NCBI GenBank assembly: GCA_018830085.1 | Contig: JAHJSR010000069.1 | Span: forward strand, 1-38,170 | Length of the DNA: 38,170 bases | Origin: Patescibacteria group bacterium | GTDB lineage: Bacteria; Patescibacteriota; Patescibacteriia; 2-12-FULL-60-25 | Direction of reading: 5' to 3' | Part shown: piece by piece, positions 1,481-6,067 of the stretch | How the letters are laid out: the number at the start of each line of letters is the position of its first letter | How positions within the stretch are numbered: position 1 is the first letter of the stretch | Notes under the pieces: generated by a model | Database searches by the model: none | The model's input: only the letters and a program-made list of their open reading frames with translations | What the model was told of the DNA's origin: nothing | Translations under genes and position numbers: made by a program

Positions 1481-3588
<2,108 letters not shown>

Positions 3589-3853: not shown

Positions 3854-4627
3854 CTAAAAATAGGTGCTGAGTAGCTCTTTATATTTTTTATTAAAAAACA
3901 ATATTTCACCGTTATATCTCAGGATACTCTCAATAAGTAAATCCGCATCAATCCAATACTCGTTTGATTTTTTGTAGTACATGCCCGATGGGTCGGAGAT
4001 GTAAAATTGATTTTTATCATTATAACCAATAACTATCGCTACATGACCCCATTGGAATCCTTTTACATCATTAGGTTTGCAGTCGTACGCTCTCTCTATA
4101 TTATGCAAAATTGCAGGGTAGTGATTAAAAATTACGGGTTTGTCATCATTGATGCATTTCACAAAATACTCTTTTGATATAGGGGATTGGTCAATAATAC
4201 CGCCTTCATTTAAGAATTCAACAGCTTTTAAAGCACCATTTTTATAATTTTTTACCCAAGCTTTATTGTAATATAGGCAAATTTTTTGATCCGGTTCTTG
4301 CTGGATTAATTTTTCTAACTCAATTAAATAATCAGCTTCCAACTTTAACTTTTCTTTTAAGTCCGGTTGATCTAATCTTGTCCAAGACGGATCAAACAGG
4401 TATGAAGTCATCGATTTAATCGTAGCCATTAGGCCGTGTTTTAAACCAAGTATTCCGGCTTCATAAAACCAATCATGCAATTTTGTACTATCTTTGTGTG
4501 AAATTGTTTCTATTATCTCATCAAGACTAATATTGAGTTGATAATAATTGAAAACTGAAAACAAGGCTTGTGGTAAGCATTCAAAATCTTTTTGTTCGTT
4601 TGTATGTATGTCTAGAATTTTTTTCAT
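3854..4627 (-). CDS. Papain-like cysteine peptidase, C39-like
   Basis: N-terminal FECLPQALFSVFNYY (Cys box) and C-terminal WGHVAIVIGYNDKNQFYISDPSG (His...Asp box), typical of C39-like folds. ATG at 4627 (MKKILDIHTNEQKD). Confidence 0.6.
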   Translation of the reverse strand: MKKILDIHTNEQKDFECLPQALFSVFNYYQLNISLDEIIETISHKDSTKLHDWFYEAGILGLKHGLMATIKSMTSYLFDPSWTRLDQPDLKEKLKLEADYLIELEKLIQQEPDQKICLYYNKAWVKNYKNGALKAVEFLNEGGIIDQSPISKEYFVKCINDDKPVIFNHYPAILHNIERAYDCKPNDVKGFQWGHVAIVIGYNDKNQFYISDPSGMYYKKSNEYWIDADLLIESILRYNGEILFFNKKYKELLSTYF

Positions 4628-4636
4628 ATAATCTTT

Positions 4637-4664
4637 AAAAATAATGCCAGCCACAGACCGGCAT
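4637..4664 (-). terminator. Intrinsic terminator of the minus-strand RNA, immediately upstream of the C39-like gene
   Basis: Minus strand AUGCCGGUC-UGU-GGCUGGCAU (9-bp stem with G-U pairs, 3-nt loop) followed by TATTTTT. The G-U pairs become A-C mismatches on the plus strand, so orientation is minus. Confidence 0.75.
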
Positions 4665-5394
4665 CGGAGTGAGCGGCCACAGCGAGGGAATGTCCGTCTT
4701 CAGCCTTCCTTTTTTCGCCTTTGGGCAAAGGACGAGGGCAAGACCTCGTCACAAGTGTCTGGCTTTTAGTTAGCTGAGGCTGAGTTGTGCATCAAGCGTG
4801 ATTTCTTTGACCCATCTCACATGCCCCGGCTGTGTGTACTGCTATGTGATTCTGTTGACCTCAAACACAATCACATGTTCCGAGGTGCTTAATGCTATTT
4901 GCATCCATTGAATGTTCGTTATTGCTTTCCGAGGGGTTGGTTTGGGCATTGTTCGTCTCGGAAAGAGTTACTCATTAGCGCGCTGTTTGGATGCTGACTT
5001 GGAGGTTTGATCACGGTTTTGAAGTTTGCTTTTTGTTATCTCCCAATCTGTTTACGTAGGCTTATTTTCTCGGAAGAAGTTGCTCGATTAACCACGTCAG
5101 GGACCTGATTCGATTTTAACTTATGGATTCAATTAATACAAAATAAGCAATTTTTATATAGAAAAAATCGCCGTGGAAGATCACGACGAAGCGAAGAGAG
5201 TGCGAATCCACGGTTAGTGGTGTTATTGAGGCATAGTCACCCCATGAATCCGCAACCGAGTGGGCGGCACTAGACCGGCTTAGCACTGCGATTGGTCCGG
5301 CTATTCCGGAGCGCTATTTGCTTGTTGAGATGTAGCTTGTCAGGCTCGGTCCCGGCTGACATACGACGGCAACCATCTCAAAAGCATTCCCGAT
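4637..5394 (-). ncRNA. Candidate large (~760 nt) structured noncoding RNA / structured leader, unassigned family
   Basis: No listed ORF lies within it. Minus-strand promoter upstream and terminator at its 3' end. Hairpins include a 12-bp helix with one bulge (5374-5385/5320-5332), 5338-5343/5356-5361, 5171-5177/5207-5213, 9-bp 4925-4933/4957-4965, 8-bp 4844-4851/4869-4876, 7-bp 4731-4737/4744-4750, and a possible end-to-end helix 4686-4692/5385-5391. Confidence 0.65.
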
Positions 5395-5401
5395 AATTAA
5401 A

Positions 5402-5430
5402 AGAATATTAAACTTTATTATTTTTGTCAA
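5402..5430 (-). promoter_or_regulatory. Promoter for the minus-strand RNA: TTGACA-N17-TATTCT
   Basis: Minus strand -35 TTGACA (5430-5425), 17-nt spacer, -10 TATTCT (5407-5402); predicted start near 5394. Confidence 0.7.
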
Positions 5431-5494: not shown

Positions 5495-6067
5495 ATGCAA
5501 AAAGTTTTTCTGATACGCCATGGTAAAGTCGAAAATCCCTCGAATATTAATTATGGAACCTTGGATGGTTTTCCGCTTTCAGCAGAAGGAAAAAATCAGA
5601 TTTATAATCTTGCTAAAAGTTTAAATGAAATGGACAGCATTTTTTGTAAAATAATTGCATCTCCATTACAGCGTACTCAAGAAACTGCTGTAATTTTATC
5701 GCAAAATCTGAACACGAAAATTATAATCGATGATCGACTCAAGGAGTGGGACATGGGGGATTGGGCGGGTCGCCCGCTTACAGAGTTTCAAGAAAAATCT
5801 GGTTACTATGACCAAGAGATGAATACCAACGGCATGGAATCTTTGGAGGATCTCTCAAAAAGAGTAATCGCCACAATCCAAGACGCTATAAGGTCATGTG
5901 ATGAAAATATTATTATCTGCTCACATCGTGAACCCATGGCTTCCGCGTTAATTAAATTACAAAAACTACCCTGGATCTCAATACATAAAGTTGATATGCC
6001 CATGGCCAGCGTCTGGCAATTGGATTTTATTGATGAAGAATTTATTAGTGCAACAAAAATTTTCTAA
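5495..6067 (+). CDS. Histidine phosphatase family protein (phosphoglycerate mutase-like)
   Basis: N-terminal FLIRHGKVENP (RHG motif), SPLQRTQETA, EWDMGDWAGR, CSHREPM. Confidence 0.88.
   Translation: MQKVFLIRHGKVENPSNINYGTLDGFPLSAEGKNQIYNLAKSLNEMDSIFCKIIASPLQRTQETAVILSQNLNTKIIIDDRLKEWDMGDWAGRPLTEFQEKSGYYDQEMNTNGMESLEDLSKRVIATIQDAIRSCDENIIICSHREPMASALIKLQKLPWISIHKVDMPMASVWQLDFIDEEFISATKIF

Follow-up and report, generated by a model that had tools for sequence, protein, structure and literature searches.

OLE, ROOL and GOLLD are long, multi-helix noncoding RNAs of bacteria and phages whose function is poorly understood; a ROOL RNA solved in one study measures 659 nt, and many GOLLD RNAs exceed 800 nt (PMC12286853). 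Orphan structured RNA motifs come from the comparison of GC-rich intergenic regions (PMC11109978, PMC8632094). In the literature we searched, coverage of which was incomplete, we found no survey of or relevant report on structured RNAs in Patescibacteria. Since the genomes of these bacteria are strongly reduced, several hundred bases of structured RNA beside a housekeeping gene would be notable, and structured RNAs outside Rfam are still to be described in this group.

Here, we analyzed a 38,170-nt stretch of DNA (the window), contig C75 of a Patescibacteria genome (G000; 1.23 Mb in 132 contigs), in which ~870 bases between the start of a peptidase C39-like gene at 4627 and that of a histidine phosphatase gene at 5495 hold no credible ORF, in agreement with the gap that a sequence-only reading of this DNA had pointed out. 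The region reaches a GC content of 0.54, compared with about 0.3 in its flanks, and lies at the junction of gyrB and the phosphatase gene, where structured RNAs also lie in two relatives, namely G008 (record JARGGJ010000009.1, Patescibacteria group bacterium isolate C14-29; junction region L029) and G002 (junction region L023). The features are collected in Table 1.

As that reading had anticipated, the window matched no Rfam family on either strand (Rfam 15, at the gathering score or, in a focused search, with E up to 5), in a release that includes OLE, ROOL, GOLLD, tmRNA, RNase P, SRP, 6S and riboswitches, and the G008 and G002 loci gave nothing credible. Its exclusion of tmRNA and RNase P RNA also held, since both of these RNAs, likewise structured and a few hundred nucleotides long, are encoded by separate genes elsewhere in G000 (C30 and C127). 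The proposed resemblance to OLE, GOLLD and ROOL RNAs comes down to size: only a broad character is common, no tRNA was found in the window, and there was no phage match. Moreover, a GOLLD- or ROOL-like RNA would be expected to have conserved structure of at least about 600 nt in one transcript, whereas about 324 nt is conserved between G000 and G008, and the conserved unit (~320 nt) falls short of the lengths given above.

Covariation in core B

Every stem named in the sequence-only reading is present, and the region (4637–5394) contains more perfect Watson-Crick stems than its dinucleotide shuffles, with 11 stems of at least 7 bp compared with 3.4 ± 1.6 (0 of 300 shuffles reached 11) and 4 of at least 8 bp compared with 0.86 (1 of 300 reached 4). 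The single-sequence folding energy of the 758 nt was not above chance (z = −1.6). The promoter-like site (TTGACA-N17-TATTCT, minus strand 5430–5402) and the terminator-like hairpin (4665–4643) described earlier are both present, but such sites occur about as often as expected by chance (4 promoter-like sites versus 3.3 expected; 2 terminator-like sites versus 1.1 expected). A GGGAATG/CATTCCC helix, which had been thought to close the whole molecule, was equalled in 29 of 300 shuffles, i.e., at chance level. The region is split in two (segment A and core B) by a 17%-GC spacer (5167–5110) and by a further terminator-like hairpin and its T6 run (5189–5168), which had gone unmentioned. Single-sequence evidence alone would not settle the presence of an RNA.

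A DNA search covering nine genomes of the genus yielded one homologue of B, in G008 (C49:52444–52779; L029:4445–4780), which occupies the gyrB/phosphatase junction as in G000. The two copies are 76% identical over about 323 nt (window 5109–4786, minus strand; query 286–609), with scattered 1- and 2-base indels that are incompatible with a reading frame. The protein-family check recognized no protein fragment in the RNA region, none of its ten longest stop-free segments matching a Pfam family above the cut-off.

RNAalifold resolved the B alignment into nine main helices. All 67 model pairs form in both sequences, with 9 changed on both sides, 7 changed on one and none broken, compared with ~2 double changes and always at least 9 broken pairs upon random redistribution of the substitutions (20,000 trials); these two tests do not allow for the structure having been derived from the same alignment. 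For that reason, folding was repeated on each of 200 column shuffles, in which conserved columns and changed columns were permuted separately. The consensus energy reached z = −8.2 on the minus strand versus −1.8 on the opposite strand, and 0 of 200 sense-strand shuffles reached 9 double changes. The covariation check thus spoke for an RNA, the helices of B being kept through both-sided changes in the G008 homologue, in few events since only two B sequences are known. The strand preference of the predicted fold fits the direction of transcription proposed earlier, and B is very probably a real RNA, conserved and structured, on the minus strand. The central claim of the sequence-only reading, a structured noncoding RNA on this strand, is supported for B by covariation, with neither a protein family nor an Rfam match. 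Like the orphan motifs, B lies in a GC-rich intergenic stretch, has conserved helices with compensatory changes and has no assigned function; unlike them, it is so far known from two genomes within a single genus.

Table 1. Positions of the RNA features and neighboring genes (window coordinates unless a locus is named)
Feature	Positions	Strand	Details
Core B, putative conserved structured RNA	4789–5106	−	~320 nt, 9 helices
B helices 1-2	5106–5090 with 5018–5003	−	14 pairs; enclose twin hairpin I
B helix 3 (twin hairpin I)	5077–5070 with 5046–5039	−	23-nt loop
B helix 4	4994–4988 with 4907–4901	−	Pairs invariant; encloses twin hairpin II
B helix 5 (twin hairpin II), CTTTCCGAG/CTCGGAAAG	4965–4957 with 4933–4925	−	23-nt loop; 9-bp stem named earlier
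B helix 6	4895–4887 with 4797–4789	−	Closes 3′ domain; both-sided changes in 4 of 9 pairs
B helix 8 hairpin, ATGTGATT/AATCACAT	4876–4864 with 4856–4844	−	8-bp stem named earlier
UGGGU in helix-9 loop	4814–4810	−	Could kiss loop II GCCCA (4947–4943) or loop I GCCUA (5061–5057)
Window-specific 3′ tail of B	4666–4788	−	GACGAGG/CCTCGTC and CCTTTG/CAAAGG hairpins
Terminator-like hairpin and T-run	4638–4665	−	~10 nt upstream of C39-like ATG at 4627
Weak candidate promoter of B	5113–5141	−	TTGTAT-N17-TAAAAT, 3 nt before ATCAGG; read by eye
Segment A	5168–5394	−	~227 nt, 55% GC, stable hairpins
Promoter-like site upstream of A	5402–5430	−	TTGACA-N17-TATTCT; 10 of 12 consensus matches
Terminator-like hairpin and T6 at end of A	5162–5189	−	8 pairs
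RNA C	G008 L029:4924–5260; G002 L023:2438–2770	−	~337 nt, structured
gyrB	1481–3547	−	Own CTTGACA...TAATAT promoter in G000, G008 and G002, read by eye
Peptidase C39-like protein gene	3854–4627	−	PF13529, E 3.4e-8; downstream of B in G000 only
Histidine phosphatase superfamily gene	5495–6067	+	PF00300, E 3e-35; other side of RNA locus

Helices, loops and flanks of B

The outer helices 1-2 are nearly constant, with 13 pairs invariant and one changed on one side (C-G/U-G); helix 3 carries compatible changes in 2 of 8 pairs (U-A/U-G and G-C/G-U), and helix 8 carries both-sided changes in 5 of 11, its stem reading ATGCATG/CATGTAT in G008. Helices 3 and 5 look alike, both having UUCCGA-type stems and, in the window, loops of equal length. 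The possible pairings of the helix-9 loop UGGGU with loops I and II are the only conserved unpaired complementarities of at least 5 bp in B, and GC-rich loop complementarity of this kind, which arose in 13 of 200 shuffles, is a weak signal. Since loop II reads ACCCA in G008, a G-U of the UGGGU/loop II pairing becomes A-U there. A switchable kissing contact in B is possible from these loops; more speculatively, twin hairpins I and II may compete to kiss the UGGGU loop and hold or switch the fold. A further stretch of B at 5001–5015 (GTGATCAAACCTCC; GTGATCACACCTCT in G008; GTGATCA-ACCTCC) bears what we take to be a resemblance to the anti-Shine-Dalgarno end of 16S rRNA.

The two B genomes share TTGTAY-N17-TAANNT three bases ahead of the conserved ATCAGG; the G008 counterpart of the candidate promoter, TTGTAC-N17-TAAGCT, has the same spacing and is a poor match to the consensus. 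At the other end, no homologue of the 3′ tail was found, and the tail is absent from G008, where a CCGTTGCTCTTGCGACGG-T7 terminator stands directly behind the last helix.

What follows B bears on how it may act. According to one explanation, B is a cis-acting, riboswitch- or attenuator-like leader of the C39-like gene, with the 4665–4643 hairpin as expression platform, as would suit a hairpin ending ~10 nt before the ATG with no room for another promoter. In G008, however, the T7 terminator behind B is followed by gyrB with its own conserved promoter, with no C39-like gene, and B matches no Rfam riboswitch; we consider such a leader decidedly unlikely. By the same arrangement, B is not tied to C39-like genes. 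A riboswitch or leader would be expected to keep a constant downstream gene, whereas here, in two genomes, it is the C39-like gene in one and gyrB in the other; with no C39-like gene following B in G008, B is not a fixed leader of that gene. A cis leader of gyrB was ruled out because gyrB has its own promoter in all three genomes.

The start of the C39-like gene lies ~10 nt after the terminator-like hairpin (window 4627–4665), which leaves a promoter of its own unclear. Its protein matched no defence system, and no C39-like gene near gyrB was matched in eight congeneric loci.

Segment A, RNA C and the number of transcripts

Segment A has an ordinary folding energy (z = −1.9), and no homologue of it was found, including in the DNA search of nine genus genomes. 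Its place upstream of B is taken in G008 by RNA C, which has a TTGACA promoter and a T-rich terminator (both read by eye), while G002 has C without B. Between G008 and G002, all 90 pairs of C are kept and 6 are changed on both sides; 33 of 200 shuffles show as many double changes, so this number alone does not stand out. The consensus energy is low (z = −10.4), and since the antisense strand reaches z = −7.8, the strand of C is less clear from energy. Like B, RNA C lies at this junction on the same strand, is structured and has no Rfam match, but neither sequence comparison nor covariance models relate it to A or B. Judged from this alignment, RNA C is a second previously undescribed conserved structured RNA. 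Segment A was rejected as a diverged C, its best score against the C model being 1.9 bits. The best candidate for B in G002 reached 7.2 bits with a single hairpin that lies on the wrong strand, and it was likewise dismissed.

We think it probable, if far from assured, that the region holds two neighboring RNA genes, both on the minus strand, with gyrB on one side and the histidine phosphatase gene on the other, B being a separate trans-acting transcript and A a second RNA gene. The two segments can be separated, and a tandem pair of RNA genes is more likely than a single molecule of ~760 nt. A single RNA from 5394 to 4638, with A, B and the tail as domains, would agree with all parts lying on the same strand, with the best promoter-like site being that at 5430–5402 and a terminator-like site lying at 4665–4643, and with the weakness of B's own promoter. 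It is, however, at odds with the internal T6 hairpin and AT-rich spacer at 5189–5110, with the replacement of A in G008 by the unrelated C, whose own T-run terminator precedes B, with the presence of C without B in G002 and with the chance-level closing helix. We therefore regard one continuous RNA as unlikely, and the end-closed ~760-nt molecule of the sequence-only reading gives way to a conserved unit of ~320 nt that in G008 ends at T7.

Under the two-gene arrangement, the B transcript would start near 5106 and stop near 4638. The large conserved A-rich loops suggest that B binds a partner. As a folded RNA, B may act in trans, most likely through contacts of these loops with a protein or another RNA. 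We infer the trans role from context only: the gene downstream differs between the genomes, and conservation stops at B's own terminator in G008. Segment A would be a second RNA gene, faster-changing than B or unrelated to it, with its own promoter and terminator, replaced by C in G008 and G002. A wider proposal would make B the first member of a new class of trans-acting structured RNAs in Patescibacteria, in which twin loops would compete for one kissing partner beside an interchangeable A or C at a single site; it is tentative, and we hold it to be rather doubtful.

Distribution and history of the locus

Covariance models of B (R1) and C (R2) were used for wider searches. R1 recovered only G000 and G008 from 381 class genomes, 380 phylum genomes (G008 not included) and, with lax filters, 40 family genomes. 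R2 recovered only G008 and G002 from the class sample (381 genomes) and nothing from the phylum sample (380 genomes), a weak negative since that sample listed neither G008 nor G002. When 84,980 species genomes were scanned for an exact pattern, G008 alone was confirmed, with the qualification that one pattern can miss diverged copies. Several candidates were set aside. The R1 matches in G261, G080 and G019 were short single hairpins, and those in G261 and G080 resemble parts of protein-coding genes. A further ten pattern matches from named genomes, together with three from viral contigs, failed the B model. A 32-nt match at G000:C97, which involves part of the AT-rich spacer, was attributed to chance. 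On these searches, B is a new and narrowly distributed candidate RNA family outside Rfam.

In a gyrB tree, which left out G004, G000, G002 and G008 form one clade (support 1.000), within which G002 and G008 are sisters (0.859); the other congeners examined have a short gap at the junction, without room for these RNAs. The simplest history, drawn from three genomes, would place B in the ancestor of the clade with a loss in G002, a gain of C in the G002/G008 line, and a gain or divergence of A in G000.

Alternatively, the RNAs could stem from a mobile or viral element that entered the junction, either as its cargo or as what is left of it, which would suit their patchy presence, the short junction of other congeners and the variable content of the locus among three relatives. 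Against this, phage and plasmid records gave no match, no hit from five pattern scans across viral contigs was confirmed by the model, no mobility gene was seen at the locus, and presence follows one fully supported gyrB clade, so we judge an origin of this kind to be very unlikely. The RNA region also holds no tandem or interspersed direct repeats, such as a TIGR/CRISPR-type array would have. That the same junction carries B and C, conserved RNAs with no relation to each other, in closely related genomes suggests a site for RNA genes with turnover, and the gyrB/phosphatase junction appears prone to insertions.

Two minor features were observed in G008. An ORF of 214 aa with no Pfam match (L029:5388–6032) separates RNA C from the phosphatase gene. 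In addition, a dispersed intergenic repeat, ACCTTGATT...CCGATT..AGGATTG, stands beside T-rich terminators at several places (L029 at about 4800–4885, and L034, L035, L036, L038 and L039 near 1501), its copies sharing as much as 92% identity across 74 nt.
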